NCBI RefSeq assembly: GCF_027319265.1
Contig: NZ_DAHVNP010000070.1
Location: 1-64,000 of the forward strand
DNA from: Ferrimicrobium sp.
GTDB taxonomy: Bacteria > Actinomycetota > Acidimicrobiia > Acidimicrobiales > Acidimicrobiaceae
Reading direction: 5' to 3'
Length of the DNA: 64,000 bases
Shown in pieces: positions 21,025 through 61,785 of the stretch; position 1 is the first letter of the stretch; every line of letters begins with the position of its first letter. The position numbers were made by a program, and so were the translations under genes. Below the pieces are notes generated by a model. The model ran no database searches, had not been told where the DNA came from, and saw only the letters and a program-made list of their open reading frames with translations.

Positions 21025-21373
21025 ACCTTCATGCTATCCCTGTTGGGAGATCTGCGTCCTGGCGCAATCTGGGTCCCAAACGTGGGATCCCCTAGTGTCT
21101 GGGCCCAATCACGCACGTGCGAGGCGTGAAACCCCTACTGATGGCGACATAGTGCCTGCGATGAGCGATCGTCGCCAATCGCTCCTGGGCCGAAAGGCAT
21201 AGTCATGATATCCGCAGACACGCCCGGACTCCTGCGAGGCAACGGCACTGCGATCGCAGGCCCCCTGCATGCCAAACATCCGGACGACGCATGCGAGATG
21301 CACAAGGGTTGCCATGCCAGTCGCTTGATCGGGAGCAGGGCAATGGCCATGTTGGCCTTTAGGATGTAACGAC
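21025..21373. other. Divergent intergenic region
   Basis: Between the reductase and the YihY gene. No gene or clear hairpin is seen; it must contain both promoters, but no strong -35/-10 pair stands out. Confidence 0.35.
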
Positions 21374-22366
21374 ATGCCCGACATCGCCCAGCTCATGCGC
21401 AAAATCGATGGCCTCCAACAACGGACGCGACCACTTGCCTTCGCCTTTGCCGTTCTTCGCAAATACGGGCAGGACTCCGCCTCCAACTGGGCACTTCTCA
21501 TCGCATACTACGGATTTGCCTCCCTTTTCCCACTCCTGCTGGTTGCTGTTACTTTGACTGGGATCATCTTCGCCCACGATCCTGCGCTCTCGCACCGGAT
21601 CTCGAACACCGTCTTTGCGCAGATACCCGTCATCGGACCCGAACTACGCTCCAAGGCAGGCGTCCACGCACTCGATGCCCACAGTCCGATCGCGCTTGTC
21701 GTCGGAGTCGTCGGAACCCTTTGGGGTTCCCAAGGCATCGCGTCCTCGGCACAGGAAGCGATGGCAACCGTCTGGAACGTTCCCATGACCGATCGGCCTG
21801 GATTTCTCCCACGCACAGGGCGGAACTTTGGCATCCTCGCCATCTTGGGCGTCAACGTCCTGGTCACCTCCTCGATCGCCACCTTTACTGCCACGCTCGC
21901 AGGACATGAGATCGGTAAAGTACTGTTGATCATCGGAACTGTCGCGATCAACCTCGGACTCTATGTCGTTGGCTTTCGCCTCTTGGCACCCAAGATGATC
22001 CCCACGAAGGACCTCTTGCCCGGGGCGTTGATCGCAGGCGTCGCCTGGAGTGCCCTCCAACAACTCGGTGGCTTCCTCGTCGGACATGAACTCGCACACG
22101 CTTCGGCAACGTATGGTGTCTTTGGGCTCGTCCTTGGCCTCATCACATGGCTTGGCCTCACCGCCACTCTCACACTCTACGCAGCCGAGGTGAATGTCGT
22201 TCACGTCAGAAAACTCTGGCCCCGCAGCCTCGTTCAACCGCCACTCACTGCAGCAGACAAGGCAGCACTCACCGCGCTCGTAGAGCAGCAACGTTACCGC
22301 CAAGAACAGGAGATCACGGTCGCCTTTGGCACCCCTTCGGACCCGAGTGCCAAAGACGCCAAATAG
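21374..22366 (+). CDS. YihY/BrkB-family inner membrane protein
   Basis: A 330-residue polytopic protein of the YihY (formerly BrkB/RNase BN) family. Seen: WALLIAYYGFASLFPLLLVAVTLTG with the family's conserved Y-x-x-x-xxFP block at the first helix, about six transmembrane helices, LYVVGFRLLAPKMIPTKDLLPGALIAGVAW, then YGVFGLVLGLITWLGLTATLTLYAAEVN, the typical last two helices. Function of the family is unsettled; it is not a ribonuclease. AGGA lies nine bases upstream of the ATG. The C-terminal 45 residues are cytoplasmic and charged. Confidence 0.9.
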   Translation: MPDIAQLMRKIDGLQQRTRPLAFAFAVLRKYGQDSASNWALLIAYYGFASLFPLLLVAVTLTGIIFAHDPALSHRISNTVFAQIPVIGPELRSKAGVHALDAHSPIALVVGVVGTLWGSQGIASSAQEAMATVWNVPMTDRPGFLPRTGRNFGILAILGVNVLVTSSIATFTATLAGHEIGKVLLIIGTVAINLGLYVVGFRLLAPKMIPTKDLLPGALIAGVAWSALQQLGGFLVGHELAHASATYGVFGLVLGLITWLGLTATLTLYAAEVNVVHVRKLWPRSLVQPPLTAADKAALTALVEQQRYRQEQEITVAFGTPSDPSAKDAK

Positions 22367-22626
22367 GCAGGGTTCTGTGGGTACTCTCGCTCAGTATGAA
22401 ACCCATTCTTGCTGAAAGTTGCCACCACACGGAGGGTGCGAGATCAACTGGTTATCGCGTATTTGCAGCACTTGACTGAACTAGCCCCAGTGCGATTGAC
22501 TGAACTTGTCTCACCCTCAACACCACTGGTCAATTGCACAGCACCGAAACCGGCATCGGATCCGTGCTACCCATGATCCAAGTCGTGCACCGATGTTGGT
22601 GGCGTATGATAGGGGCGGGGCAAGGC

Positions 22627-23442
22627 ATGTCGATTATTCGTACAGTTGATTAACGCCTAATCGTTGGCCCCGAGGAAGCGAAGGAACTCCTGTTTAGCGC
22701 TTTCAAGATCGCTGATCTCAGTCCTGAAGTAGCTTCTGGGGCAGTCATTGGCCATGCGAAGGCGAAGTTGACAAGGAACCGTTGGGCTGTGGACGATACT
22801 GCTATAGAGAGACCGCATCCCAATGGATCCTTGACTGAGCTTCGAATCGAGATGCCGGCGGGCACGAAGCACTTTGCCGTCGCCGACGAGATCGCACGCT
22901 ACTTGCCGGAGGAAGTGTTTGACGGTTGCGGGCTGAAGAATGCAGTTGAGTGGCTCAGCAAGGTAAGCAAACTCGCTGGTTGGCGTGAGTTTCGCTCCGT
23001 CGATCACTATCTTTCCTCCACAGAGACACTTCGGGCAATCGGCCAAGGCCCATGGCAGGGGAATCAGTCGATGGTAGTGCTCAGTGATGAGCGCTTGTTC
23101 TTCTTGACAAAAGGCTTCGTCGGTGCTACCAGTGAAGAGTTCTCCCTCACCGCGATCAACTCGGTCGTTGCGAAGCGGAGGCCCATCGGTGAGGAACTCA
23201 TTGTGACCGTGGCTGGTAGCACAACATCCATCAGCCGAATGATGCACGGACAGGGAGATGCAATTGCTCGGGGGTTTAGAAAGGTGAGGACAAACATGAA
23301 GTCCTCCCTCTCGGCTGAGGCTTCGATTGAGTCGGCCACCTCTAGGGCTGAAGAACTGGCTAAGTTCGCGTCCCTTCACTAGCAGGGAGTTCTAACAGAC
23401 GAGGAGTTCGCTGGCATGAAGTAGCAGGTTTTAGGGATTTAG
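22627..23442 (+). pseudogene. Bacterial PH (YokE-like) plus SHOCT gene interrupted by three in-frame stops
   Basis: One uninterrupted frame of 272 codons carries a protein with TAA at codon 9 (22651) and TAG at 23380 and 23422, ending at TAG 23440. From about 22654 the frame reads VGPEEAKELLFSAFKIADLSPEV and on into a YokE-like bacterial PH domain (VVLSDERLFFLTKGF, FSLTAINSVVAKR, ELIVTVAGSTTSISRM). The end reads ELAKFASLH-stop-QGVLTDEEFAGMK-stop-QVLGI, a clear SHOCT domain broken by both amber codons. Reading only from TTG 22768 to 23382 would give a 204-residue protein lacking its N-terminus and most of SHOCT. No frameshift is seen. It could be a recent pseudogene, a truncated functional gene, or a readthrough case. 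Confidence 0.7.
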
Positions 23443-24049
23443 CAGCATTGCAGATACTTGTGGTGGGGACCGCTCGACGGGTTAGTCAAAACTCCCTGAC
23501 ACAACACGGATGGACTGTATGGAATCGCTACCCATGGAAAAAGGGTGACGCCACCATTACGGACACTTCTCCATCAACCTGAGGGGACCGCCACAGAGGT
23601 GTGTCACATCGTAGGACCCAAGCACATGACAGCACGACGATTATTGACGGAGAGCTCATGGTATTCGGAGATGGGGCGGACGGCTCATGAGACTCGTGAT
23701 ATACATCTGAATCGACGGCTGGGCGTAATATCGGCTACTTGTTGCCCCACTATGCAGTCAATCGACGATAAGGAGATCGAGATGACCTGTTCACGGAAGC
23801 TCCGAGAAGCTTATAGTATCACATTATGTAACAGCTGAGCAGTACGCCTCTGTGTCCCACCGGAAACGCGCTTCAGAACCCAAGATGGTAATAGATTGCA
23901 TACCCGAGAGGTAAGGCCGAAACCTTTCAGCCCTGAACAAGGTAGAACCGAACCTCGTTCAACGGTTGGATGCGCTCGAGTGTCAGCGTCACGGCCGACT
24001 GAGTTGGTTGGGAAATCGTTCCACGGAAAGAAAACTTTTTGCGTTTCGC
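23443..24049. other. Gene-poor, AT-richer stretch (about 600 bp)
   Basis: No supported gene. A 97-codon plus frame at 23545-23838 uses a weak start and has no family features. Base composition is lower in GC than the surrounding operons, which fits decayed or foreign DNA. Confidence 0.4.
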
Positions 24050-24078
24050 TTGACAGACTTGTGGGCTGATTGTAACAT
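24050..24078 (+). promoter_or_regulatory. Sigma70-type promoter of the APC permease-P1 peptidase operon
   Basis: TTGACA at 24050-24055 and TAACAT at 24073-24078, with a 17-bp spacer, about 40 bp before the permease ATG at 24119. The -35 is a full consensus match and the -10 matches five of six positions. Confidence 0.65.
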
Positions 24079-24118
24079 TCGGATAGCTGTCTTACTACAT
24101 CCAAAAAGGGGGGATTGT

Positions 24119-25561
24119 ATGGTACAGAATGCTGATCCTGGGGGGCTAGGCGATAAAGCGGGTGCTACCACTGGGCACTACGAACAGAAACTTTCGCGCT
24201 CGCTCTCCACTTGGGGAAACATCATGATTACTTTGTCGGGAGTAACACCAGCGGTGTCAGTTTTCGCGATCGCTCCTGTTGCGCTCGTCGAGGCCGGTAG
24301 CGGTACGTTTCTATCGTTTATTTTTGCGGCAATCCTTGGTGTGGTGATGGCACTTTGTTGGGCGGAGTTGTCTTCGAGCTATCCGATTTCGGGCGGTGAC
24401 TACGCTTTGGTCTGGCACTCTTTCAAAGGGCGAGCCAAGCCACTGGCTGGTCCCATGAGTTTTATCACCTTTGCCCTGTATGTTGACTTCATCGCGTTCA
24501 TCCCTGCCACTATCGCACTCGGTGCTGGTGAGTACTTGGGTGTCGTCTTCAGCGTTGATGCCAAAATTCTCGGGGCCGCGATCATGATCCTCGCAGCACT
24601 GGTGGCGATGCTAAAGATTCGTTTCAATGCTATTCTCACGGGGATCTTCCTCGGAATCGAAATGCTTGCTCTACTGACCCTCACAGTTCTAGGGATCATC
24701 CATGCTCACCACTTTGGTGCACTCATACATCCCCAACTCGGCAACAGCCACAGTGTTCTCGTGCCGGTCGCATTCTCAGGAGTGCTCGCATTAACCGCGG
24801 TCGCCATATTTTCTTACAATGGCTACGCAAATGCTGTCAACTTCGCCGAAGAGACCAAGGGTTCACATCGAACGATTGCGAAGGCAATCCTCATTTCGCT
24901 GTTGATCACCGTTGTCGCAGAGCTCTTGCCTATCACGGCGGTCATCGTAGGTGCACCTTCGTTGAGCAAGCTGACTACGTCGGCGATCCCTCTCGAGTAC
25001 TTTATCAAGGCGACATCCTCAAACACCGTGTATGACATAGTCGCGATTGGCATTGCTCTTGCTGTCTTCAACGCGACACTTGCCATCATTTTGAGTTATG
25101 CGCGCATTTTGTTCAGTGCATCACGTGACAAGGCGTGGCCTGGGAAGTTGAGCGATTGGATGGCTTGGGTGCATCCTAAGACACAGTCGCCATGGCTTCC
25201 AACCGCAATAGTTGGCGTCGCAGGTGCAATTCTTTGCCTGACAGTTTCGCTCGGCACGCTCGCGAACCTGACTGGTGCGAGTCTCGTAGCAGACTATGCG
25301 ATCATCGCCATCGCTGCGATTGTCGCTAGGACCACCGGCGCCACGCGACACTCTCACTACCGCATGCCGCTCTGGCCCCTACCCCCGATCCTTGCCATCG
25401 CTGGTCTTGTCTATGTCTTTACTCAGCAGACCGGCTACCTGTTAGAGGTCACGCTGATCACCATAGCAATCGGTCTTCTCTACTGGCTCATTGTGATTCT
25501 TCCTCAAAAAGGAAAAGCCTGGGACCTTCGTGAAATTGCTCAGGAAGGAGATTCTCAATAA
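24119..25561 (+). CDS. APC-superfamily amino acid permease
   Basis: A 480-residue transporter with 12 predicted helices. Seen: the first unwound-helix motif GVTPAVSVFAIAPVALVEAGSG, WAELSSSYPISGGDYALVW at helix 3, and FSYNGYANAVNFAEETKG before the helix 6-7 loop, all typical of the APC (amino acid-polyamine-organocation) family, here closest to basic or aromatic amino acid carriers. It probably imports an amino acid, amide or small peptide. The ATG at 24119 has a GGGGGG site four bases upstream. Its stop overlaps the ATG of the P1 peptidase by one base (TAATG), so transport and hydrolysis are coupled. Confidence 0.9.
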   Translation: MVQNADPGGLGDKAGATTGHYEQKLSRSLSTWGNIMITLSGVTPAVSVFAIAPVALVEAGSGTFLSFIFAAILGVVMALCWAELSSSYPISGGDYALVWHSFKGRAKPLAGPMSFITFALYVDFIAFIPATIALGAGEYLGVVFSVDAKILGAAIMILAALVAMLKIRFNAILTGIFLGIEMLALLTLTVLGIIHAHHFGALIHPQLGNSHSVLVPVAFSGVLALTAVAIFSYNGYANAVNFAEETKGSHRTIAKAILISLLITVVAELLPITAVIVGAPSLSKLTTSAIPLEYFIKATSSNTVYDIVAIGIALAVFNATLAIILSYARILFSASRDKAWPGKLSDWMAWVHPKTQSPWLPTAIVGVAGAILCLTVSLGTLANLTGASLVADYAIIAIAAIVARTTGATRHSHYRMPLWPLPPILAIAGLVYVFTQQTGYLLEVTLITIAIGLLYWLIVILPQKGKAWDLREIAQEGDSQ

Positions 25562-26682
25562 TGGCCAATCTTGAACGTACGGCGGATGGACGTCCGAGGG
25601 CTCGGGCGCTTGGTTTCGAATTCGATGGAGTTCCTGGAGCAACCAATAGTCTGACCGATGTACCCGGAGTAGAAGTCGGCGTGAAGACCATCATCACCGG
25701 AGACTCAGTGCGTACTGGTGTAACAGCAATCCACCCACGGGGCAAAGGACAGGTGACTGATCCGATAGCAGCGGGATTCCACTCCCAGAACGGGAATGGT
25801 GAAATGACTGGCGTGTCATGGATATCGGAATCCGGCACCTTTGCTGGTCCAGTTGTCATCACCAATACCCATGCAGTTGGCGTTGGCCATGCCGGAGTGG
25901 TCGCTTGGACCGTAAAGCACCACCGTGATGCCGCAGAAGTTTGGTTGCTTCCGGTCGTCGGCGAGACCTGGGATGGATATCTCAATGACATCAATTCGCA
26001 TCCTGTGACCGAGGAGGATGTGATTGAGGCACTTGAAAGCGCTATATCTGGCCCTGTTGCAGAAGGCTCGGTAGGCGGTGGGACAGGAATGAACTGCTAT
26101 GAGTTCAAGGGTGGCAATGGGTCTGCAAGCCGAATTGTCGCTTACGGTGACACGACATATACGGTCGGGGTGCTGTTGCAGGCGAACTTTGGAAGTCGCG
26201 AAGAATTGACGCTTCGAGGAGTTCACTTTGGAAAATTGTTTGCAGACGACAATCCGATGCGCGATAGTGCCCCAGCTCCACCGGGGGCTGGATCGTGCAT
26301 CGCGATTGTCATCACTGATGCACCACTCTTGCCCGGGCAGTGTCAGGCGCTTGCTCGGCGCGTCACGCTCGGATTGGCAAGAACTGGCACGACTGGCTCA
26401 CACTTCTCTGGCGATTTGTTTCTCGCCTGTTCAACCGGGAATGCTCACGCATTCACCCCTGCTCAGGTTACCTTTGCCAATGGAGCATCCGGGGTGCTTG
26501 ATACGATGTCGTTCATTCCCTGGGGCAATCTCGACCCTTTCTATGAGGCAGTTGTGCAAGCAGTCGAAGAGGCGGTTGCCAATTGCTTGGTGGTCAACCA
26601 AGACATGGTAGGTTATCTCGGGCACAGGAGTCCAGCTTTTCCAAAAGAGCGCGCGAGCGAAGAGTTGAAGCGGCGACACTGA
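25561..26682 (+). CDS. P1-family aminopeptidase (DmpA / L-aminopeptidase-D-esterase type)
   Basis: A 373-residue self-processing N-terminal-nucleophile hydrolase of the DmpA/BapA family, which removes L-, D- or beta-amino acids from amides and short peptides. Visible: NSLTDVPGVEVG, TGVTAIHP, VVITNTHAVGVGHAGV, the SVGGGTGMNCYEFKGG segment, QANFGSREEL (Asn208 of the oxyanion site), and the autocleavage site G244-S245 followed by CIAIVITDAPL; Ser245 would become the new N-terminal nucleophile. Its size matches the family. GGAG lies just upstream, and one-base overlap with the permease gene implies joint expression. Confidence 0.92.
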   Translation: MANLERTADGRPRARALGFEFDGVPGATNSLTDVPGVEVGVKTIITGDSVRTGVTAIHPRGKGQVTDPIAAGFHSQNGNGEMTGVSWISESGTFAGPVVITNTHAVGVGHAGVVAWTVKHHRDAAEVWLLPVVGETWDGYLNDINSHPVTEEDVIEALESAISGPVAEGSVGGGTGMNCYEFKGGNGSASRIVAYGDTTYTVGVLLQANFGSREELTLRGVHFGKLFADDNPMRDSAPAPPGAGSCIAIVITDAPLLPGQCQALARRVTLGLARTGTTGSHFSGDLFLACSTGNAHAFTPAQVTFANGASGVLDTMSFIPWGNLDPFYEAVVQAVEEAVANCLVVNQDMVGYLGHRSPAFPKERASEELKRRH

Positions 26683-28066
26683 AGGCAAGAGGACCTGCCG
26701 CGAGTGACACTTCCATCGTGACCTTTGGCGGGTACTACTTGACCTCGACGACTGCATAACCAAATTCTTCCTCGTGCCCAGGTTTGCCTCAATAGAATAT
26801 CTGTCACTTCACCGGCAGTACTTCGTCACGTAGGCCAGCAAATCGGAAGTAGCTGTTCCGACTGCTAATTACAATAGGTCTTTTCGCAACTTATCAAAGG
26901 GTCCACGAGCTGGTTAGCCTGAAAGCTGGCCCTCTCTTCCAATTCGTCACGTGCGGCACCGCACGCACGGCCCACCTAACGATTGGTTGCCTCCGCTTCG
27001 CAGAGATGGCCAGGTTGTTCTACCGATAGGTCGCCACCGCCAGTAATTAGAGGTTCTATGAGGTCCCTCGCCAGGGAAAAGCTTCGATTTCACTCCAGTA
27101 TGTCGACGGTCTCCACTTGAATTTTGCTAGTGGTACGTTTCTCCACAATCAAGAGACCAACCATCGCTTGTGCTACGCTATTGTCAGGTTGATCACTGCT
27201 TATCGCCCAGGCTGCTGCCTGAAATCGCCCCAAAAAGCCGTACGAATCATTTTCGGCTTTGATCGCGACCACGCAAATGCGCCACCCATCACTTTCCGAG
27301 CACTCAGCCGGTGCGATGGGCAGCTAGGTGAAGCGCCAGCGACGTAGTATCGGGTCTACCGGGGGCCACCGCGAGTAGAGCACCCTTTGGGCCATCCATG
27401 CGGCTACCAGGAGATCGCGGCTCCCGGTCCGAAGTTCGAATCGCAACACCTCACACCTAGTCATTGATTAGCATCAGTGCAGTTCAAGGGGGGTGTCTTC
27501 ATCATACGTTGTCATGGATGAGCAGGGTCAGGCAGAACTTCGTGACACACAATGCGACACGGATTCAACTTTTGTAGCACACCTTCGCTCTCAAGCCTAG
27601 AAGGCGTCCCACTACCGGACCGGCACTGTGGTGGCGCGAATCCCGAAGATGCGACACTGGCACCCGCAGATGCGATTACTGCTCGAACTGCTCATACACA
27701 TTAGCGAGATCTACTATTCTTCTTCGCCTCCAAACTCAAACCTTACACCGGAACAGCATGCTCAACATCCCTGCGGGTTTACCCTCTTGGCCCGGTACGA
27801 GAACCTTGGTGACCGAACTGTGGCGCATGCCAACACGGATCGCTCGTCCACAACGCGATAGGCGTCGAGCTCAAAGGAAAATGCACGTGTGACCAGAGGA
27901 GTCGGAAAGAGAAGGAAAGCCGACCCATGGATCTCGGTCTAAGGTGAGTAACGAGTGGTCCAAGGTTGCGCGAAATCGTGGTCCAGGGTACGAGAATAGC
28001 TAGCCCAACACTCCTCGACCCCTGGGAACGTAGCAACTACCACCAGGGGTCGGGTGAGGGGCTGTC
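26683..28066. other. Long gene-poor stretch (about 1.4 kb)
   Basis: The longest gap in the window, between two convergently placed catabolic units. No frame has a ribosome binding site and motifs together. A minus frame around 27090-27320 stays open for about 75 codons and looks protein-like (AQAMVGLLIVEKRTTSKIQV) but has no start, so it could be a remnant. A TTCGAAT at 27435 has no matching T-stem and is not a tRNA. Confidence 0.45.
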
Positions 28067-29503
28067 CTAGTCAGCTATCGGTGCTTGCTCATCGTCCTCA
28101 GCACCTTCGAGCAGAGCCGGTGCCTTGCGCATGACATCTGGCTTGCGCTTGCCAAGATAGAGGGCGTAAGCAACACCAACCGCTATCAACGCAACAGTTA
28201 AGTATGGCAAGGAGTTATAAGGGGCCGCCTGCCCAGGCTGGAGATCACCATAGATGGGGATGGCCAGAATGAGAATGCCGATAATCGGAACGATGAGCTG
28301 CAGTACCACCTTTGATCGCACCCCAGCAGTTCGTGACTTGAACCAGTGGACTACCAATGCGACATTCGCCATCAAGTACATGATGATGACGCCGAGAATC
28401 CCGTAGGTACCCAAGAATCCAGAGGCTGTCCCGGGTTGCGTGAACGCATAGGATACGACCCCAATTGCAATACTGGGGGCGACGAATACAATGACGGCTG
28501 TCCACGGTGTTTTGAACTTTCTAGAGATGAGACCGAACTGCTTTGCCCAGAGTCCGCTGCGCGCACCACCAAAGATCACCCGGGAGGTCTGGGTGTTCGC
28601 TGCCACATAGCTCGACGTCACGGATGTGAGAAAGATCCAGGTCACAAAGGGTGCCAATGCGCCTATGTAGCGCTCGGCCGCAGCATGGAAGGGATTTGGA
28701 TTTGCGGCGAGGGCTCCGATGTGATTGGTTCCAAAGGCGATGACCAGGGCATAGGATCCCAATACATAGATGATCCCACTGACCAAGACGGTACCAAGGA
28801 CTGCGATGGCTACGTTTTTGCGAGGGTTCTTCGTCTCTTCGGCGAGGGGGGCAGACGCCTCAAAGCCGCCAAAGGCGAGAATGGCAAGAGAAAATGCTAG
28901 CAGTACTTCCTTTGAGTGACCCGGCCAGGCAAAAGGTGTCGCGCTCAACCCTTGAGGTCCTCCGTGAATGAGAAAGGCAATGCTCAAAGCCAGGAGGAGC
29001 ACGACTTCAAACACGTAGAGGACGATGGTGACACGCACCCCTACCTTCAAACCCAGTATCACCGGCACCGCGACCAAGACTCCGTAGAGAATCGTCACGA
29101 TTGGCGTAGCACCCCAAAAGTGAAGGCCTCCAAAGAGATTCTGGGTGATATAGCTTCCCACGTAGATGTAGATCCCACCAAAGGCAATGATATAACCCAA
29201 AATGGTGATGATTCCAACGGCAGTCGAAGTCTTTGGACCAATGCTCTTTGCGATATAGGTCAGAAAGGAGCCAGAGCTTGGATAAAGACCAACGAACTGT
29301 GCAAGGGAGTTGGCGGTCGCAGCAACCCCTACCATTGAGATCAAAAAGATCAGCGGCACGGAAGCCCCTGCTAGACCTGCCATCACTGCAGTCGTAAAGA
29401 AGAGGTTGAATGCCGGAGCGACCTGGGCAAGCCCAGGCATGATGACCCCGATCAAACCGATCTGGTTGCGTTCAAGTTGCTCTTCTGTATGATTATTTTC
29501 CAC
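28067..29503 (-). CDS. APC-superfamily amino acid permease
   Basis: A 478-residue, 12-helix carrier of the amino acid/polyamine family. Seen: IGVIMPGLAQVAPAFNLFF at helix 1, FVGLYPSSGSFLTYIAKSIGP at helix 3, FGGFEASAPLAEETKNPRKNVAIA at the helix 6 to 8 region, and YVAANTQTSRVIFGGARSGLWAKQFG. The charged C-terminal tail is cytoplasmic. Start is GTG 29503 with GGGGGA seven bases upstream, lying inside the end of the hydrolase gene, three bases after its stop; this shows tight coupling. It is last in the four-gene operon with M20 peptidase, FCD regulator and hydrolase and probably imports their substrate or exports a product. Confidence 0.9.
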   Translation of the reverse strand: MENNHTEEQLERNQIGLIGVIMPGLAQVAPAFNLFFTTAVMAGLAGASVPLIFLISMVGVAATANSLAQFVGLYPSSGSFLTYIAKSIGPKTSTAVGIITILGYIIAFGGIYIYVGSYITQNLFGGLHFWGATPIVTILYGVLVAVPVILGLKVGVRVTIVLYVFEVVLLLALSIAFLIHGGPQGLSATPFAWPGHSKEVLLAFSLAILAFGGFEASAPLAEETKNPRKNVAIAVLGTVLVSGIIYVLGSYALVIAFGTNHIGALAANPNPFHAAAERYIGALAPFVTWIFLTSVTSSYVAANTQTSRVIFGGARSGLWAKQFGLISRKFKTPWTAVIVFVAPSIAIGVVSYAFTQPGTASGFLGTYGILGVIIMYLMANVALVVHWFKSRTAGVRSKVVLQLIVPIIGILILAIPIYGDLQPGQAAPYNSLPYLTVALIAVGVAYALYLGKRKPDVMRKAPALLEGAEDDEQAPIAD

Positions 29504-29506
29504 TGG

Positions 29507-30307
29507 TTATCCCCCTACTGAGTTGATGAATGATAAAAACGATTGATTGAACTCATCCGGATACTCCCACACACATCCGTGCCCACCCTTGGTTTCGCGG
29601 TAAATACTTCCCGGGGTTAGCTTGGCTAACTCTTTGGAGAGATAGGTAGGAATGAGGATGTCCTGTTCGCCAGCTAAGACCATTACTGGAATTCCCAAAT
29701 CCTGGAGTCGATTTCTTGTATCGTGTGTTTGAATAGCGTTGAGCTGGGCGAGATAGGCATGCGTTGGTTGGTCGCCAAAGACCATGGCTTCCTCGAACTC
29801 TCGGAGTTCATTCTCTCGCTCTTCGAAGAAGGTGTTGGTAAAGGCCCATAGGGTGACGTCTCGCATGACGAAGGGAACTCCAAACACTGGAGCAAGATCT
29901 GCCCACATTGCAAACATTCGAGAGCAGAAGGGACCAGGGGCCGCATAGGTGCACGCGAACGTTACGGAGAGGAGTTGCTCTTGGAACGCAAGGGCATACT
30001 CTTGGGCGATCATTCCACCCATCGAGACACCCATGAGGTGAAATGATTCGATTCCCAGTGCGGTGACCAGATCGTGAGCATCCCTTGCCATCATCTGCGT
30101 CGTGTAGGGACCAGCCGGTTTTGAGGTCGCACCGACTCCTCGGTTGTCAAAACGCAGGACCCGGTAACCCGCCGCCAGAAGATCTGGCACCTGAAGCTCC
30201 CAGGTCTCGAGCGTGTCGGCCAGGCCATTCACCAACACGATTGTCCGCTCTGATTCTCCTTCGAGTTCATAGTGGAACTCGATTTCTCCAACTTGGATTT
30301 TTGACAT
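29507..30307 (-). CDS. Alpha/beta hydrolase (3-oxoadipate enol-lactonase-like)
   Basis: A 266-residue alpha/beta-fold hydrolase. Landmarks: IVLVNGLADTLETW (HG-type oxyanion turn with Asn-Gly replacing His-Gly), LRFDNRGVGATSKP, nucleophile elbow G-V-S-M-G-G with Ser95, VLAGEQDILIP with the acid, and GGHGCVWEYPDEFN with the catalytic His. The fold subgroup includes enol-lactonases, esterases and haloperoxidase-like enzymes, so the name is approximate. ATG 30307 follows GGGGGG at only two bases. It lies 69 bp after the FCD regulator and directly before the permease. Confidence 0.85.
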   Translation of the reverse strand: MSKIQVGEIEFHYELEGESERTIVLVNGLADTLETWELQVPDLLAAGYRVLRFDNRGVGATSKPAGPYTTQMMARDAHDLVTALGIESFHLMGVSMGGMIAQEYALAFQEQLLSVTFACTYAAPGPFCSRMFAMWADLAPVFGVPFVMRDVTLWAFTNTFFEERENELREFEEAMVFGDQPTHAYLAQLNAIQTHDTRNRLQDLGIPVMVLAGEQDILIPTYLSKELAKLTPGSIYRETKGGHGCVWEYPDEFNQSFLSFINSVGG

Positions 30308-30376
30308 TTCCCCCCTTTGGTAAGGTGTATTGCTGCTCTGAAAAGATTTTGCCCAATGTGGGACATGTTCGTGGTC

Positions 30377-31150
30377 TCAATCTGTAGTGTCTTGATCCTC
30401 CTCTCTCGCAACACGTGCGAAGAGGCCGCGAAGTAGGTCCTCGGTGAGCAAGAAGTGTTTCATCGCGAGCTTGGCCGCAGTTTCTGAGTCGCCGTCCAAG
30501 ATAGCTTGAGCCAGTTCCGGGTGTTGATGGAGGGCACGCTCACGAATGTCCTTGGAGTAAGGTTCTGCACCAAAGCCAAGCGATACTTCCTTGCGCAGTT
30601 GCAAGGAGATGTCCACCAACAATGGGTTGTGCGTCGCCCTTGCGATGGCAACGTGTAGCAGCCTGTCAGCTTCGCCCGACGAGAGCCTGTCGTTGTGAGC
30701 CTGGTGGTAACCCTCAACCGCGTCGGCAATCTTTCTTTGATCTTCTGGGGTACGACGATGTGCTGCTGTCCTGGCGATCTCCGACTCGATGAGTGACCGG
30801 AGATCAAGGAGATGCTCTACCCGATTCCATTCGGGCAAGAGCACACGTTTGACCATTTGGTCCACTTCAGGACCGACATAGTCAGTAACAAACGAACCGC
30901 CATCGCGACCGCGTTTGACGATGAGGTAGCCACTCGCAGCAAGTCGTTGTATCGCCTCTCGGATGACACCTCGACTTGTTTGGAGAAGTGTCGCTAACTC
31001 ACGCTCTGAGGGGAGGCGTTGTCCGGGAACGAACTCTCCAAGAGCAATTGCGGTAACGATGCGCTCGGCGATCCTTTCACCAGCGTTTTGCATGGGAAGC
31101 GGAGCAAGTGACTGAGTGATCCATTGGTTGGCAAAGTGTTCTTCATCCAT
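30377..31150 (-). CDS. GntR-family regulator, FCD (FadR-C) subfamily
   Basis: A 257-residue repressor-type protein: winged helix at about 22-88 (AERIVTAIALGEFVPGQRLPSERELATLLQTSRGVIREAIQRL), with a basic wing IVKRGRDGGSFV, then an FCD all-helical domain at about 105-240 (LLDLRSLIESEIARTA, ADRLLHVAIARATHNPLL, HQHPELAQAILDGD). Its ATG overlaps the end of the upstream M20 peptidase gene by eight bases, so it is made with the enzyme it most likely controls. The ligand is probably a carboxylate or amino acid produced in the pathway. Confidence 0.9.
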   Translation of the reverse strand: MDEEHFANQWITQSLAPLPMQNAGERIAERIVTAIALGEFVPGQRLPSERELATLLQTSRGVIREAIQRLAASGYLIVKRGRDGGSFVTDYVGPEVDQMVKRVLLPEWNRVEHLLDLRSLIESEIARTAAHRRTPEDQRKIADAVEGYHQAHNDRLSSGEADRLLHVAIARATHNPLLVDISLQLRKEVSLGFGAEPYSKDIRERALHQHPELAQAILDGDSETAAKLAMKHFLLTEDLLRGLFARVAREEDQDTTD

Positions 31151-32441
31151 GCTTCATCCTTGAGGGGTTAAGAATGTCCAATTCACCGGAGAGATAGGAA
31201 ACGATAAAACTCGCGTAGTGCTTGGCCGTCTCGACGATGCTTGAGATGACCACATATTCGTCGGTCCCGTGCATGTTGCCAACGATTGGGCCATAACAGA
31301 GCGCCTCGCCACGTCCATGGTTGACGTAGTATCGCGCATCGGTCGTGCTACCCATTACTTCGCGGGCAGGTCGTTGTCCATAGTGCCTGACAAGCACATC
31401 GCTAAAGGTGCTCACAAGTGAGCTAGCGGGATCGAGATAGTAACCTTCTGCGCGAAAGCCGGTCGCGGTCACAGTGAGTGAGAAGTCTTCCGGGCCCGCG
31501 ATGACTACCCCTAGGCGCTTCTCCACTAGCTGGGCAATCTCGTCGTGACTGTATCCGTTGGGGAACCCGATCCTCACTTCAAGTGTGACCCACGCAGGAA
31601 CACTCGACGCCCAGTCACCAGCTTGGATCTTCCCAATATTGACGTTATATGGCTGGGACAAGTCAGTAAACGGCTCCTCGATCGATTCGTTGAGTTCGCG
31701 TTCGAGATTCCCTAACTCAGCGATCAAACCAGAGAGGAGCTGTGACGGAGAACGGAGCCTGTCAGCTGCTTCAGCGTGTCCGCCCCTGGTATTGATGGTC
31801 AGCTGTAGCCAGACGATCCCAATCCCTCCAAGGAGAATCGACTGGTTGGTCGGCTCTGGTAGTAGCACCACTTCTGCGTCGATTCCAGAACGAAGGGCTG
31901 ACAGTGTTCCGTTGCCAGTACATTCCTCCTCGATCACTGCCAAAAGTGCCATTGGGTGATCAAGGAAGTCTCCCGCAACTACAGAGATCGCCTGTAGCGC
32001 AAGTGTGGCGGCCACAAGTCCTCCCTTCATGTCACCTGCACCGCGTCCATACATACGGTCACCAGCCAACACTGGTACAAAGGGTGGACTGCTCCAACCG
32101 GGGCCTTCGGCGGGCACCACATCAATGTGTCCGTTGATCAGCAATGAGAGTGAATCGCTTGTTCCGTTTGTCGTGGCCAGTAAATTATGGCGATCTCTAT
32201 AGCCCTGCGACGGTACTCCAGCGAGTGGATCAGCTGCGATACGATCGTCGATTGATACCAGCGTGGGATCGAGGCCAAGACGACTCAGGCGATCCCCAAG
32301 AACCTCGATGGCACCGGCCTCGTTGCCAACGGTGCTTGGCTCGCTCACAAGCGCCCTGAGGAAACCGAGCTCAGCTTCGATGTGGGTCTCGACGGCAGCA
32401 TCCAGTTGCCGAACCAGGCCGTCAGGCAAACAAGCCATCAT
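31143..32441 (-). CDS. M20-family peptidase / deacylase (ArgE-DapE type)
   Basis: A 432-residue di-zinc hydrolase. Motifs: LLINGHIDVVPAEG (zinc His, catalytic Asp), YGRGAGDMKGGL (bridging Asp), VIEEECTGNG (base Glu and zinc Glu), LLPEPTNQSILLGGIG, the dimerisation segment TRGGHAEAAD, and the final zinc His near GNMHGTDEYV. This subgroup holds acetylornithine deacetylases and N-acyl amino acid or carbamoyl hydrolases; sequence alone does not choose. First gene of the operon. Start ATG 32441 has a GAGAG site, with ATG 32438 in the same frame. A perfect inverted repeat lies seven bases upstream. Confidence 0.9.
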   Translation of the reverse strand: MMACLPDGLVRQLDAAVETHIEAELGFLRALVSEPSTVGNEAGAIEVLGDRLSRLGLDPTLVSIDDRIAADPLAGVPSQGYRDRHNLLATTNGTSDSLSLLINGHIDVVPAEGPGWSSPPFVPVLAGDRMYGRGAGDMKGGLVAATLALQAISVVAGDFLDHPMALLAVIEEECTGNGTLSALRSGIDAEVVLLPEPTNQSILLGGIGIVWLQLTINTRGGHAEAADRLRSPSQLLSGLIAELGNLERELNESIEEPFTDLSQPYNVNIGKIQAGDWASSVPAWVTLEVRIGFPNGYSHDEIAQLVEKRLGVVIAGPEDFSLTVTATGFRAEGYYLDPASSLVSTFSDVLVRHYGQRPAREVMGSTTDARYYVNHGRGEALCYGPIVGNMHGTDEYVVISSIVETAKHYASFIVSYLSGELDILNPSRMKHG

Positions 32442-32447
32442 AAACTC

Positions 32448-32466
32448 TCAATGGTGCAGACATTGA
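32448..32466. promoter_or_regulatory. Inverted repeat at the start of the M20-FCD operon, candidate operator
   Basis: TCAATG and its exact inverse CATTGA flank a 7-bp spacer, ending seven bases before the M20 ATG. This is where the operon's own FCD regulator could act; an overlapping imperfect ATTGGT/ACCATT pair covers the same bases. Confidence 0.4.
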
Positions 32467-32666
32467 ACCAATAGTACTTTATCTTTTAGATGTTCATGCA
32501 CATTTTGGCCCCAAGCTCATAATTCCTACTCGGAGTGAACGGCCTAATTCTTGGATTTCTCCTCCAGCCCTCCTTGCTTGATTAGGAGAACTGCTGTGGC
32601 TTAGCATCCAGTCCGTAGTTAGGAATCGCCTTCGACACATCATCACTCATGGGGACTACGCTACAA

Positions 32667-32684
32667 TCTCAAGTTAACTTGAGG
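32667..32684. promoter_or_regulatory. SoxR box
   Basis: TCTCAAGTTAACTTGAGG differs at one position from the SoxR operator known from the enterobacterial soxS promoter (CCTCAAGTTAACTTGAGG) and has a perfect 16-bp palindromic core. It is 30 bp upstream of soxR. TACAAT at 32662-32667 could be a rightward -10; on the minus strand TTGACC and TAGCGT flank the box with a 19-bp spacer, the long spacing used by MerR-type activators, so it may also activate leftward. Confidence 0.8.
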
Positions 32685-32713
32685 TCAAGTCAAGAGAGGA
32701 AAAATTTACCAAC

Positions 32714-33178
32714 ATGTCCCCTAATCAGGAACTACTGCCGATTGGAATAGTCGCTCAGCGCTGTGGCGTCTCGGTGGCGACGCTGCGATTTTACGAGGAG
32801 CGCGGGCTCATCGCCTCAATCCGGCAAGATGGACACAAACGCATGTACCCTCGATCGATGATCCGTCGAGTAGCTTTCATCAAAGTCGCCCAGCGAGTAG
32901 GGCTCTCACTCGACGAGATCACCGAAGCGCTCGCATTGCTCCCTCACAACCGGACTCCAACAGCAAAAGATTGGCGTCAACTATCGGTTAGTTGGCGATC
33001 CCGCATCGACGAACAGATCAAGACCTTGCAAGGACTGCGCGATGACCTTGACTCCTGCATCGGTTGCGGATGCCTTTCACTGGGAACGTGCTCGCTCTAC
33101 AACGCTGGTGATCGAGCTGCCAAGTTCGGAACCGGTGCGAGGTACCTTCTCGGTGACGAATCTTCGCCAAAGGGGTAA
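32714..33178 (+). CDS. soxR: SoxR, redox-sensitive MerR-family transcriptional activator
   Basis: A 154-residue MerR-type regulator. Residues 10-75 are the winged helix (IGIVAQRCGVSVATLRFYEERGLI), 80-112 the dimer helix, and C115, C118, C120, C126 form the C-x2-C-x-C-x5-C [2Fe-2S] site that defines SoxR. Oxidation of the cluster by redox-cycling compounds or superoxide turns on promoters with overlong spacers. A near-canonical SoxR box is 30 bp upstream. In actinobacteria SoxR controls oxidoreductases and transporters rather than soxS. Convergent with the DUF4331 operon and separated from it by a strong hairpin. AGAGG lies upstream of the ATG. Confidence 0.95.
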   Translation: MSPNQELLPIGIVAQRCGVSVATLRFYEERGLIASIRQDGHKRMYPRSMIRRVAFIKVAQRVGLSLDEITEALALLPHNRTPTAKDWRQLSVSWRSRIDEQIKTLQGLRDDLDSCIGCGCLSLGTCSLYNAGDRAAKFGTGARYLLGDESSPKG

Positions 33179-33197
33179 TGCCGCCTACCCACAAGGC

Positions 33198-33231
33198 GAT
33201 ACCCTCCAACACCGCGGCGTTGGAGGGTATC
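33198..33231. terminator. Strong hairpin, 13-bp perfect stem
   Basis: GATACCCTCCAAC pairs perfectly with GTTGGAGGGTATC across an 8-base GC-rich loop, 20 bp after the soxR stop and 70 bp after the end of the convergent operon. It can serve both directions. Only a few T residues follow. Confidence 0.65.
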
Positions 33232-33301
33232 TTCAATGAGGAGCAACAGTGACCCAAGGGAGTTCCCTGCGCTCCCTATTTGCGCTTAATAGCGCAATGT
33301 C

Positions 33302-33670
33302 TTAGACGGAAACCTCGAGTTGGCTCACCGTGAGGGTCTTCACCTGACCGGCGACGATCGTGACCCTCCCCAGCTGTTCCTGGCCCTCGATGTCAAGTGT
33401 ATAGGTCCCCGGCTCCAGGCTTGCAAAGACCGCAGCTACTTGAATCCTTCCAGGAAGGACACGATCGAGGAACCATACGTGCTTATGGAAACCTCCGACA
33501 CCGCGGACAAAACACTCCTTGCCAACGTGGACGTCCTCACCCATAACGATGAGGGCACCCACCGTCTCATCGATATCGACCGCCACTGAACCCGTCATGG
33601 ACGGAAGGTGCTCCTTGGGCAGCATACGCTGCCCAAGGAGCTTCAGGGGAGGAAGTGACTGTTCGGTCAC
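33302..33670 (-). CDS. Hypothetical 122-aa protein coupled to DUF4331 gene
   Basis: The GTG start at 33670 overlaps the DUF4331 stop as GTGA, the typical coupling overlap; an upstream ATG at 33724 in the same frame would overlap by 58 bases. The protein has no signal or membrane helix. It is beta-rich, ending in a segment like a small beta-sandwich or transthyretin-like fold (LPGRIQVAAVFASLEPGTYTLDIE, VTIVAGQVKTLTVSQL). No known family is recognised. Last gene of the Tat protein-DUF4331 operon. Confidence 0.6.
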   Translation of the reverse strand: MTEQSLPPLKLLGQRMLPKEHLPSMTGSVAVDIDETVGALIVMGEDVHVGKECFVRGVGGFHKHVWFLDRVLPGRIQVAAVFASLEPGTYTLDIEGQEQLGRVTIVAGQVKTLTVSQLEVSV

Positions 33671-35091
33671 GAGTTGACCAGACTCGGCGTGGGTGTTGTC
33701 GAAGGATTCGAGAACCCATCCCATGGGATCCCCAAGTAGGGGAAGCTCGGTAGGTATGTCTCTCCAATGGGACCTAGCTGGCTTGGCGAAGTCTTATTGG
33801 GGTTGATGACGTCATAGATCTCACCCGCTGCCGCATCTGGCTTGTAACTCTTATCCACCAGAGGAATCGTCAAACCAGCAATCGCGCGAAGCTCAATGGA
33901 GACGACATCATCGAAGACCCTGCGTCCATTGGGATATCCGGCAAGATCGCCGCCAAGGACCCCGAGAATCGATGGGGAACTCGATGGAGGTATCGCCACA
34001 TTCAGCCGCAACATGTCAGCGTACCATGGGCCGGTGTAGGTGTTCAGGCCGTCCACAATACCGGTTGGGATACCAGTCAAGAGGATGGCGACGAGGTCGG
34101 CTCTGGCCGCCGTGTACTTGGCCAGGTCTGGGAAGACCCCTGGATAGAGGACCGGCAACAACGACCCGAGTTCAGGGTGCTGTACGTAGGAGAGGAACTC
34201 TCGATCGGCAAAGGGTGGCAGTGTATTCCAAAGATCCTTCTTGCCGATTGGAACGATAACCTCATTAAACAGTGGGTTGCCCAACCTTGACACCTGCACG
34301 AAGGGACCCACATCTGAGTTCTGTCCCGAGAAGGCCTGGTCAAAGACACGCACCTTCTGCCGGTTTGCCGAGGTCCAAATGCCAAGCACCGCCGCTGGAT
34401 CGGTGACCGAGGTCGGCATCGATCCATTGCTCGTCAGGAGTGTGATCGGCACCTGGATCGCAATAGAGGCGACATTGAGTCCAGCTGTCGCATTGACTCC
34501 TGCGGAGGCTGGTCCCGGAATGAGCTGATCAGGGGAGAAGGGACGAAGGTCGCCAAGATCAAAGATAGAGCCCAAATCAACATAGAAGCCTTCAGCACGC
34601 TGACCAGCAAAGATCTTCTCTCCATCGCTGGTGGTTACCACTGCTGCATCAGCGAGCGGCGTATAGTGGGGAATCGAACGAGGTCCAACGTTAGAGGGCG
34701 GGCATGGCGCGTTGCTCGCGAGCACGTGAGAGCCGTTTTTATCGATGCGTGTCACCGTATAGAACTGACGACGATTCCAGTTCGGTGAATCCAACGAGGT
34801 GATCTGACCGGTGTTATACAAGAAGGTATTCGGGTCGTTCAACACGGTGTGGAACTGGAACTGATAGGTGATATTTGACAACGGCTCACCGTTGTTCGCG
34901 ATGTGGATCTCATAGAGCACATCATCACCGAACTCATAAAAGTTCGGTCCTCCGGCGGGTAGCTGCAGTGGTAGGTAGTTCGCAATGATCGTAACGGTAT
35001 CTGGATTATCAGGAGAACGAAATGCATAGAGATCCGTTGAATCTGCGACGGGATCTTTTGATATAGCGGGTGCTTCTCGGTGTGACGACAC
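33667..35091 (-). CDS. DUF4331 family protein
   Basis: A 474-residue protein of the DUF4331 family. It opens directly with the family hallmark MSSHREAP...DPVADSTDLYAFRSPDNPDTVTIIANYLPLQ, then FGDDVLYEIHIANNG, FQFHTVLNDPNTF, a central ADREFLSYVQHPELGSLLPVLYP, and near the end RRVFDDVVSIELRAIAG. Members are often secreted beta-rich proteins of unknown function, but this one lacks a signal peptide. Its upstream neighbour is a small Tat-signal protein, so partner-assisted export is possible. Start is GTG 35091 with GGA upstream. It sits in a three-gene operon converging on soxR. Confidence 0.88.
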   Translation of the reverse strand: MSSHREAPAISKDPVADSTDLYAFRSPDNPDTVTIIANYLPLQLPAGGPNFYEFGDDVLYEIHIANNGEPLSNITYQFQFHTVLNDPNTFLYNTGQITSLDSPNWNRRQFYTVTRIDKNGSHVLASNAPCPPSNVGPRSIPHYTPLADAAVVTTSDGEKIFAGQRAEGFYVDLGSIFDLGDLRPFSPDQLIPGPASAGVNATAGLNVASIAIQVPITLLTSNGSMPTSVTDPAAVLGIWTSANRQKVRVFDQAFSGQNSDVGPFVQVSRLGNPLFNEVIVPIGKKDLWNTLPPFADREFLSYVQHPELGSLLPVLYPGVFPDLAKYTAARADLVAILLTGIPTGIVDGLNTYTGPWYADMLRLNVAIPPSSSPSILGVLGGDLAGYPNGRRVFDDVVSIELRAIAGLTIPLVDKSYKPDAAAGEIYDVINPNKTSPSQLGPIGETYLPSFPYLGIPWDGFSNPSTTPTPSLVNS

Positions 35092-35141
35092 GGCAATTTC
35101 CTTTCAGGGAACGATATCTTGGTATTTTCGTTGGTGTGGTA

Positions 35142-35429
35142 TTACTTGGTAGCGCGGATCGTTGAGGCGAGTTGCGCAATGAGGCGGTGATCCTTGATAC
35201 GAACCTCTTGGGTCCCAAACATCACCGACAACTCTCCAGTGGCGGGGTTGGCAACGTGAACCACCAACGACTGCAGAGCACTCGACTCCTCGGGAGTGAG
35301 TTGGGAATATGCTTGCTTCCTGGAATCGACGAGCCGGGCTGCACCACTTGGAACAACGGCAACTGCTCCGGCCGCCGCCAAGGTGGCAGAGGATCGGATC
35401 AGAAAGGAACGACGACTAACTTCGGTCAT
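35142..35429 (-). CDS. Small Tat-exported protein (95 aa)
   Basis: Begins MTEVSRRSFLIRSSATLAAAGAVAVV: twin arginines in S-R-R-S-F-L followed by a hydrophobic run and a likely A-x-A-type cleavage near residue 30. The mature part of about 60 residues has LTPEESSALQSLVVHVANPATGELSVMFGTQEV and no cysteines. The ATG at 35429 has GGAGG four bases upstream; an ATG at 35444 is also in frame. First gene of the operon with DUF4331, 50 bp upstream of it. The function is unknown; it could carry the signal-less DUF4331 protein through the Tat pore. Confidence 0.7.
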   Translation of the reverse strand: MTEVSRRSFLIRSSATLAAAGAVAVVPSGAARLVDSRKQAYSQLTPEESSALQSLVVHVANPATGELSVMFGTQEVRIKDHRLIAQLASTIRATK

Positions 35430-35690
35430 ATGGCCTCCATTCACTAAGCAGCGAATGCTGCTGATGTGTTTGGTTCGTCACCCCTGACGGCGTTGGATGT
35501 CATCGATAGAAAATGTTTGACTACTTTTTGCGGGTGAACCAGCGATTCACCGCCCCCGCTGGACCTCTTCATCGTCAGCGATCGGCGCCGTTGGTCGAGG
35601 AACATGACACCTACACACCAGCCGACACCTCGTGCTAGTGCAGATCGCTCTCGAGTGATTCCTTCCACGCGAGCTAGCACACCGCCGCTA

Positions 35691-37358
35691 TCAGATCACG
35701 CTTGTCCTCACAAACTCGCCAAAATCACGGACATGATCGGCATGAAAAGCCTCCATGAATGCCTCTGAATGCGTGATCACCATAATGGTGGCACCCTCGA
35801 ACTGCGCATTGAGTATTTCAGCGACGATCTGCTCATTTTCTGCATCCAACCCCGCAGTGGGCTCGTCAAGCACGAGGTTCTTTGGGTTCAGGACCAGTAG
35901 GCGCGCCAAGGCAAGTCGTTGCTTTTCCCCTTGGGATACCATCCGATTGTCCTGCCCCATCATCGTCGCGAGCCCATCGGATAACTCCGCGAACCATGGG
36001 CCAAGGCCGACCCGACCAAGCGCATCGATCAACTCAGCATCACTCGCAGCCGCGCGCGCCAGCCGCAGATTGGCGGCGAGTGAGGCTCCAAAGAGGTACG
36101 GCTCCGAGGAGAGGTAGGCGATCGAAGCGGCGATCGTCTCCTCGCTGAGCTCCGTCGTCGGTATCCCACCGATACGCATCACCCCGGCCGTTGGCGTCCA
36201 TGCTCCCAGCACCATGGCAGCCAAGGTAGACTTACCCGATCCCGTCGGTCCAACCACCAACAGCCGCTGACCCCCCTCAAGATGAAGCTCAAAGGAGTGC
36301 AAGATCTCGCGATCAGCGTCTGGGTAGTGAAACGAGACGTCTTCACACTCGATCGTTAAGGCGCTCAAGGGGAGGGTGGTCTGCGAGCACCGCGAACAGT
36401 CGCGACCCTGGAGCGCCAGCGTTCGCTCAAGTCGTGCGACTGCAGGCGTACCAGAACCAGCCGTCGCTGCCTCGAGGCCGACCGCGGTCAGCCCCTCCAC
36501 GATGGCGAGGATCAGAAAGGGAATGACGGCGAGTTCGACCGCATCGAGCCTGTGCGCTGCCATCAGATCAGCACCAATCCATAGCGTGGCCGTGAGAGCC
36601 GTCGCCTCGATCACACCGTTGAAGACGCCGAGCCAGGTCTGGATGCCCGCCTGGCGCCGCTGTGGACGGAGTAGCCGGAACGTTTTGTGTTTGAGTTGGT
36701 CAAGAAGCGGGTCCCCACGGCGAAGAAAGTAGCGGGACTGAAAGGTTGCTGCGGTCGCCAGGGAGGTGTCGTAGGCCTGCGCGCGCAAGACGCTCGTACT
36801 CTGCGCTCCCGAGCGAGCGAGGCGATAGGCCCCAAAGGGGACCACGAGTCCGATCAGGAGCAAGCTCGGTAGGAGAACCACCACAAAGACGGGCGACACC
36901 GCGCCGGCAATGACCACAACCACCAGTGAAGCGAGGCCGACACCGGTGGCGGGACCAACCAGCCGCGCGGCAAGATTCTCAAGCTGTGTCATATCACCGT
37001 TTAACGAGGCGAGCACCTCGCCAAAGACCCCCGGTCGCACCCGATAGGGAACCACCGCCGCCAGACGATCGAAGAGCAGGGTGCGAATCCTTGCTGCCAG
37101 ATCGAGGGTGAGTGAGTGACCCCACATGCGCTCACCATACTGGCTTGCCCCACGGGCCAGCGCGAAGAAACGAACCGATCCGATCACCACTCCGAGCGTC
37201 AAGATACCAGGCTTGAGTGCAGCCTTCGAGATCAGATACGCCGAGAGGCCAAAGAGCACCGCGGGTGAGAGGTAGGCCATGAATCCCGTCCCAAGATAAC
37301 CCCACACCTCCCATCGACGTTCTCGCAGACGTTCGCGCGCCAGTGTACCAAGGGTCAT
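35691..37358 (-). CDS. cydC: CydC, ABC exporter subunit for cytochrome bd assembly
   Basis: A 555-residue half-transporter with a six-helix membrane domain (about 1-310) and an ATPase domain (about 335-555): Walker A GPTGSGKST, signature VSQGEKQRLALARLL (Gln-Gly-Glu in place of Ser-Gly-Gly), Walker B LVLDEPTAGLD and the H-loop ITHSEAF. CydDC moves reductants (glutathione/cysteine, or a heme-linked process) needed for cytochrome bd maturation. Its ATG overlaps the cydD stop by four bases. Last gene of cydABDC. Confidence 0.9.
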   Translation of the reverse strand: MTLGTLARERLRERRWEVWGYLGTGFMAYLSPAVLFGLSAYLISKAALKPGILTLGVVIGSVRFFALARGASQYGERMWGHSLTLDLAARIRTLLFDRLAAVVPYRVRPGVFGEVLASLNGDMTQLENLAARLVGPATGVGLASLVVVVIAGAVSPVFVVVLLPSLLLIGLVVPFGAYRLARSGAQSTSVLRAQAYDTSLATAATFQSRYFLRRGDPLLDQLKHKTFRLLRPQRRQAGIQTWLGVFNGVIEATALTATLWIGADLMAAHRLDAVELAVIPFLILAIVEGLTAVGLEAATAGSGTPAVARLERTLALQGRDCSRCSQTTLPLSALTIECEDVSFHYPDADREILHSFELHLEGGQRLLVVGPTGSGKSTLAAMVLGAWTPTAGVMRIGGIPTTELSEETIAASIAYLSSEPYLFGASLAANLRLARAAASDAELIDALGRVGLGPWFAELSDGLATMMGQDNRMVSQGEKQRLALARLLVLNPKNLVLDEPTAGLDAENEQIVAEILNAQFEGATIMVITHSEAFMEAFHADHVRDFGEFVRTSVI

Positions 37359-39022: not shown

Positions 39023-39048
39023 GTTCCCTCTTTGACCCTCATCCTCAC

Positions 39049-60861: not shown

Positions 60862-61785
60862 GTGTCGTATCTCCCCTTCAACAGTGCCACGTCTCCCAAG
60901 GTGGCACTCGTCACTGGTGCCAACGGTGGCTTAGGTCGGTGGTGTAGCCTTGGACTTGCCCAGCGCGGCTCCGTGGTGATCCTCGGCTGCCGGAGTGCTC
61001 AACGCGGACAAGCAGCTATCGATTGGATTCACCAACGAGTACCAGCGGCTCATCTCGAACTACTCACGATGGACCTAGCGAACCTTTCGTCAGTTCAAGA
61101 GGCGGCGCAGGAGCTCGCCGAACGTCACGACGTCCTTGACGTCCTCGTCAACAACGCAGGGGTCATGATGCTGCCTAGAGCGATGACGGTGGATGGATTT
61201 GAGCAACAGTTTGGAATCAACTACCTTGCCCACTACGCCCTGACTGCCCAACTGTTCGAGCGGCTGCTGGCAAGCGAGACCCCAAGGGTCGTCTCGGTCG
61301 CGAGTTTGGTAGCGAATCATGGGAGCGTTCAGCTCGACGATCTCCAAGGACTCACCCATTATGGGCGCTCTCGCGCCTATGCCCAGTCCAAGCTCGCCAA
61401 CCTGCTCTTTGGCAAGGAGCTCGCACGCAGGGCAGCGGCAAAGGGTCTCTCGCTCACCAGCGTGATCGCTCATCCCGGTTTTGCTAACACTGGCCTCCAA
61501 CGACGGACCGGCCGGGCCAATCTTGGTCGAGTGGGCGAGGTCGCTATGATCGGCGCCAATCTCCTCTTTGCACAGTCTGCCGAACGAGGCGCCATACCTC
61601 TCATTCGAGCGGCGACTGACTTCACTCTTGACAATGGGACCTATCTCGGACCCGATGGATTGAAAGAACTCTGGGGCAGAAAAGCGGCCCCTGCTCACGT
61701 ACCAAAAGCCGCGCTCGATGAGGAGCTCGCACGCGAACTCTGGGAGATCTCCGCCACCCTCTCTGGCGTCAGTTTCCCACTCTAG
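60862..61785 (+). CDS. Short-chain dehydrogenase/reductase
   Basis: A 307-residue SDR of the retinol-dehydrogenase-like group: TGANGGLG at 18-25, DLANLSSV, VNNAGVMMLPRAMT, INYLAHYALTAQL, S in SVASLVAN, and Y-A-Q-S-K (Tyr-x3-Lys). C-terminal VIAHPGFANTGL and NGTYLGPDGLKELWGR are typical. GTG 60862 is used; the ribosome binding site is weak. Lies 43 bp after the importer operon, so read-through is possible. Confidence 0.9.
   Translation: MSYLPFNSATSPKVALVTGANGGLGRWCSLGLAQRGSVVILGCRSAQRGQAAIDWIHQRVPAAHLELLTMDLANLSSVQEAAQELAERHDVLDVLVNNAGVMMLPRAMTVDGFEQQFGINYLAHYALTAQLFERLLASETPRVVSVASLVANHGSVQLDDLQGLTHYGRSRAYAQSKLANLLFGKELARRAAAKGLSLTSVIAHPGFANTGLQRRTGRANLGRVGEVAMIGANLLFAQSAERGAIPLIRAATDFTLDNGTYLGPDGLKELWGRKAAPAHVPKAALDEELARELWEISATLSGVSFPL

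Follow-up and report, generated by a model that had tools for sequence, protein, structure and literature searches.

Probable horizontal acquisition of a PH-SHOCT gene in Ferrimicrobium and its inactivation by point changes

The frame at positions 22627-23442 on the forward strand of the window, the whole 64,000-nucleotide stretch of Ferrimicrobium sp. DNA analyzed here, is probably an ordinary pseudogene: a PH-SHOCT gene that was acquired horizontally and inactivated by point changes, and not an instance of new stop reading. The gene would have been brought into the genome in, or next to, a variable segment bearing mobile-element scars; point changes would then have created three in-frame stops, inactivating it. 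Such a gene would be expected to yield a peptide of 8 residues, begun at the ATG, and at most a 204-residue fragment begun at an internal TTG, in which the N-terminal domain and SHOCT are each reduced to half. The PH-SHOCT frame, judged from these lesions, probably no longer functions.

Read directly from the window sequence, the frame is single and uninterrupted by frameshifts over its 272 codons, with a TAA at codon 9 (22651-22653), TAG at codons 252 (23380-23382) and 266 (23422-23424), and a final TAG at codon 272, at position 23440. The first-pass annotation had described one 272-codon frame holding PH and SHOCT domains, with TAA at codon 9 and TAG twice inside SHOCT; its account of the stops agrees with the sequence, and the frame reading, Pfam and the homolog profile described below all confirm the single frame. 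Its headline, three internal stops that are all ambers followed by CAG, fits the two internal TAG codons and fails for the third internal stop, the TAA, which is followed by CGC; CAG does follow all three TAG codons (252, 266 and 272). The 242 codons between the TAA and the first internal TAG stay open. The stretch from the TAA to the first in-frame ATG, GTG or TTG (22654-22767) is as family-like as the same part of an intact Paenarthrobacter homolog, and the longest conventional open part (22768-23382), as given by the ORF list and Pfam, encodes 204 residues from a TTG and contains the PH domain. On the minus strand, an open frame of 240 residues (22657-23379) covers almost the whole pseudogene and is probably a chance product of codon make-up.

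Eight distinct intact actinobacterial homologs, 267-274 residues long and 28-32% identical to the whole frame, are colinear with it from the ATG to the last codons, with no frameshift. They comprise L003, L004 and L082-L087, the starts of the latter six being trimmed to the conserved beginning; L006 (same protein accession as L003), H3 (same match values as L003), L005 (a 130-residue partial protein) and L008-L011 (partial) were dropped before counting. A profile of the eight, built without the window, matches codons 1-269 with an E value of 2.5e-55 (search size set to 1), and the +1 frame of 22627-23442 scores -3.3 bits, that of the +2 frame being unreported. Since the frame matches the profile of intact homologs over its whole length, the stops interrupt a true former coding frame. 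The match persists beyond the stops: the 18 residues past the first internal TAG, with the second TAG omitted, score 7.0 bits, versus at most 2.4 bits in every reported shuffle (1000 shuffles were made, and 811 sequences, the real one included, were reported). The alignment with full-length PH-SHOCT proteins that the first-pass annotation proposed as a check has thus been made, and it finds colinearity and conservation past the stops. As expected of a bacterial pseudogene, disabling changes are present, three stops here versus eight intact homologs.

By its sequence, the frame is best described as a former gene of an actinobacterial PH-SHOCT family resembling phrog_2700. The family's order of parts, an N-terminal domain, a bacterial PH domain and SHOCT in about 270 residues, is retained, the last being recognized only with TAG read through and then just below cut-off; an intact reading frame is what the TAA and the two TAG codons have taken away. 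The PH domain, bPH_3 (PF14470), lies at 23056-23241 on the forward strand (residues 135-196 in the translation of 22654-23379) and is above cut-off at E 3.2e-6. SHOCT, found by a six-frame Pfam search at 23350-23433 on the same strand with both TAG codons inside it, reaches E 5.1e-6 and 26.5 bits with TAG read as a residue, the cut-off being 27, and is the only locus in the whole genome with an E value of 0.001 or better in a six-frame search with the SHOCT model. In an earlier survey, SHOCT (PF09851) was found paired with the bacterial PH domain PF03703 in nine proteins, and nucleic-acid binding, protein binding or localization was proposed for it, oligomerization being unsupported by the tests in that paper (PMC3581485). 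The window copy shares with that SHOCT its small size, C-terminal position and two-helix form, but it is broken by two TAG codons, and the PH model that it accompanies is PF14470 rather than PF03703.

The closest known relatives, intact genes of soil-dwelling actinobacteria, are carried in part on plasmids. Five plasmid records were matched by tblastn. Four of them, three Rhodococcus plasmids with identical match values and one Paenarthrobacter plasmid, align over 80% or more of the query; the fifth is a partial Streptomyces match. The annotated Rhodococcus and Paenarthrobacter homologs are “PH domain-containing proteins” of 274 and 272 residues; WP_138845955.1, the Rhodococcus plasmid protein, resembles the window frame in length and in the order of its parts but is intact, whereas the window frame has three internal stops. 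An alignment-profile search of genome contigs added six more loci, in Rhodococcus, Mycobacterium/Mycolicibacterium and Nocardia; a single-protein search of the same collection gave no match. All three homologs scanned match phrog_2700, the Rhodococcus protein with E 1.7e-33, and the window matches it with E 1.7e-10, although this family covers only the PH and C-terminal parts of these proteins. Among the partial relatives, L009 and L011 score 97.8 and 94.2 bits against the eight-homolog profile, both as PH-SHOCT, and L008 scores 43.7 bits in the PH part only; L010, judged by eye, resembles PH-SHOCT.

A structure model of one homolog, L084 (pLDDT 82), and not of the window sequence itself, has an alpha/beta domain at its N terminus, then a PH-like barrel and, at the C terminus, two helices. 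Mapped onto this model, the TAA is in the opening strand of the N-terminal domain, the codon-252 TAG is where the first SHOCT helix ends, and the codon-266 TAG is in the second SHOCT helix, which is also the last helix. The best viral structure match to the model is a 267-residue Siphoviridae “Bacterial PH domain protein” (E 2.9e-12, TM 0.60); its PDB matches, mostly PH-like folds with query-length TM-scores of about 0.3 or less, were set aside.

All eight homologs, each of them distant from the window frame, have a residue rather than a stop in each of the three columns. The first-pass annotation had suggested that Gln, converted from CAG to TAG by a single transition, would restore the domain; this finds no support in the alignment, where Gln is absent at every stop column in all eight homologs. 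The column of the TAA holds T in six, A in one and W in one; that of codon 252 holds D in six, E in one and S in one; and that of codon 266 holds A in five, S in two and T in one. In L009-L011, compared by eye, the residues at the columns of the two TAG codons are E, A and T, and S, A and A, again with no Q. A CAG-to-TAG origin is accordingly not supported rather than disproved, the ancestral residue not being inferable at 28-32% identity.

Searches aimed at closer relatives returned little. A protein search of 60 genomes gave one match, the source genome itself, and nothing in six congeners (one of them 83% complete); the same search of 296 genomes gave two, the source genome and a weak match in G070 (E 1.3e-4), and of 396 genomes four, the source genome and three partial relatives. 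With the alignment profile, 21 of 42 genomes matched; except at the window's own locus, these matches are confined to the later part of the profile, and the six congeners again gave none. Across these genome, contig, plasmid and phage searches, no close intact relative was found. A tblastn search of 50,697 phage records with the protein was negative, as were two scans of viral contigs and an exact-pattern search. Another contig of the same genome does hold a distant second relative, G000:C18:23673-24050, where a 235-residue open frame matches the later profile part only (E 3.2e-4).

The loss is probably recent, as there is no frameshift and the SHOCT tail is still family-like. Frame-preserving decay of this sort is mildly unlikely under neutrality: three stops with no frameshift have a probability of 0.006-0.14 for assumed indel:substitution ratios of 0.15-0.03, and at the neutral rate three stops would take some 115 random substitutions to arise. 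The N-terminal, PH and SHOCT parts are no more decayed than in the intact, equally distant Paenarthrobacter homolog, and the linker is worse. Columns invariant in the other homologs, counted leave-one-out with near-identical pairs not counted against each other, are retained at 51 of 115 by the window and at 55 of 115 by the intact Paenarthrobacter homolog, a count that does not separate decay from distance. The stops are confined to the first 9 and last 20 codons, which has a probability of 4.5e-4 under uniform placement in a test set post hoc. Either the stops arose recently and sit where they do by chance, or loss began at the ends while the middle was kept. The proposal, already made in the first reading of this DNA, of a recent decay by nonsense changes without frameshift is supported, if not proved.

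The setting is that of a variable locus. The pseudogene is found at the left end of a segment of 10.25 kb (22361-32611) that, by locus comparison, is missing at this site in both of the sisters that could be read far enough on that side. In G004, the BrkB-like gene (21318-22360) is 94% identical, and matching resumes at 32612-39425 (90%); in G003, BrkB is followed by sequence matching from 32647 on. The two ORFs that separate BrkB from the resumed match in G004 look to us like two halves of a transketolase. Three further congeners, followed for about 1.5 kb past BrkB, have no match to the window at E 1e-4; the sixth, G005, does not match the BrkB-permease stretch at all; and in five congener loci a tblastn search with the protein reaches E 2.7 at best. 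The segment encodes two amino-acid permeases, an S58 peptidase, an alpha/beta hydrolase, a GntR/FCD regulator and an M20 peptidase, and the six genes scanned in it have Pfam domains above cut-off. The patch around the pseudogene had been called GC-poor and gene-poor; the former is only mildly so (54.0% GC in the pseudogene and 51.1% in the gap downstream versus 57.5% in the window), and the latter is true of the stretch between the end of the BrkB-like gene at 22366 and the permease ORF listed from 23966.

Two scars lie between BrkB and the pseudogene. The first (22376-22462) resembles the end of a multi-copy mobile element and has several congener copies near contig ends; the second (22471-22532), with short multi-copy congener matches, resembles an end of what we take to be an IS21-type element. 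An ORF that we presume to be IstA-like lies within about 0.5 kb in three of the six loci with a copy of the second scar, all in G003 or G002. In the one such piece scanned (L052), Mu-transpos_C_2 is above and rve below cut-off, a pattern consistent with what we take to be an IS21-type transposase. No repeat joining both ends of 22361-32611 was found, and neither the gap at 23443-24119, searched for gene remnants in four of six frames, nor the 1.4-kb gap at 26683-28066, searched in all six, contains a Pfam match better than E 0.062. The gene would have arrived with a plasmid, phage or transposon-borne segment, as suggested by its ties to mobile DNA: the phrog_2700 match, the plasmid records of Rhodococcus, Paenarthrobacter and Streptomyces, and the likeness of the L084 model to the Siphoviridae PH protein. 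Against a mobile origin stand the lack of a match in phage records or viral contigs and the location of six of the eight homologs on genome contigs, which may or may not be plasmids.

The alternative that survives best, unlikely as we consider it, is that the cell still makes a shortened PH protein, starting at the internal TTG (22768) or at a non-standard start codon after the TAA, only the ends having been lost. The distribution of the stops at the two ends, with 242 codons open between them, and a PH domain above cut-off are what this would predict, and shorter intact relatives exist: L009 is an open frame of 173 residues with PH and SHOCT parts and no N-terminal domain, and L005 a 130-residue plasmid protein with no SHOCT-like end by eye. 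However, a start at codon 48 would cut off strand 1 and helix 1 of the N-terminal domain in the L084 model, along with two further strands, leaving half a domain rather than removing it cleanly, and the outer parts are as family-like as those of the intact Paenarthrobacter homolog, which is unexpected after long free drift.

Read-through of the stops at some level, giving a little full-length protein, is very unlikely, and the option of read-through or recoding that the first-pass annotation held open is unsupported. The SHOCT tail past the first TAG is still family-like, CAG is common to all three TAG codons, and many bacterial in-frame stops have been argued to be under purifying selection, with frequent read-through (PMC7918605). 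The means of reading them are, however, missing from the genome as scanned. The tRNA family RF00005 has 48 matches, 47 of them above cut-off; ARAGORN called all 47 as tRNAs but not the one match below cut-off, and neither a CUA nor a UUA anticodon, and so none of the amber suppressors that had been suggested as a target of search, is among those typed (the genome is 95.9% complete, and the scan covers tRNAs caught by the RF00005 model). RF1 is present, above cut-off, so that neither a stop-reading tRNA nor loss of RF1 was found to back a recoded gene. Furthermore, one TAA and two TAG codons would all have to be read, and the TAA is not followed by CAG.

No amber-suppressor or pyrrolysine system was found, either among the tRNAs typed or by way of PylS, which has two matches in the genome, both below cut-off; the PylS model also matches 13 of 14 control genomes, one above cut-off. 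Global reassignment of TAG was rejected: TAG ends 13 of 47 selected window ORFs (12 without the antisense ORF over the pseudogene), and in 12 of the 13 the next in-frame stop follows after 9-93 codons, in the remaining one after 348. The shared TAG-CAG context is real, but it was spotted after the fact; CAG is next to 23 of the 921 TAG triplets in the window, and the probability of three TAGs sharing any next triplet in the window is about 4e-4, post hoc. An apparently ordinary gene-length ORF at 60862-61785 also ends in TAG followed by CAG.

Little credence attaches to sequencing or assembly error as the source of the stops. Many internal stops in assemblies are errors (PMC11017572), and this assembly is in 82 contigs, but three separate substitution-type errors would be needed in 816 bp, and ten other window genes scanned have Pfam domains above cut-off in open frames. 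That the TAG-CAG context marks tolerated or regulated read-through, keeping a mobile-element PH-SHOCT protein very low with SHOCT in a minor product only, is scarcely to be credited.

In-frame stops within bacterial genes are reported to be widespread, to tend to be short-lived and to be over-represented in the mobilome category (PMC7918605), so that the window case is of a known kind. The cases in that study resemble it in being nonsense changes in gene-like frames, with mobilome genes over-represented among them, but they rely on stops common to related species, whereas the window case comes from a single genome. The PH-SHOCT family is hereby recorded outside the hosts of its closest known relatives. 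The pseudogene itself is ordinary, another gene lost after transfer, and it carries a caution: a few stops without a frameshift are, on their own, no evidence for recoding.
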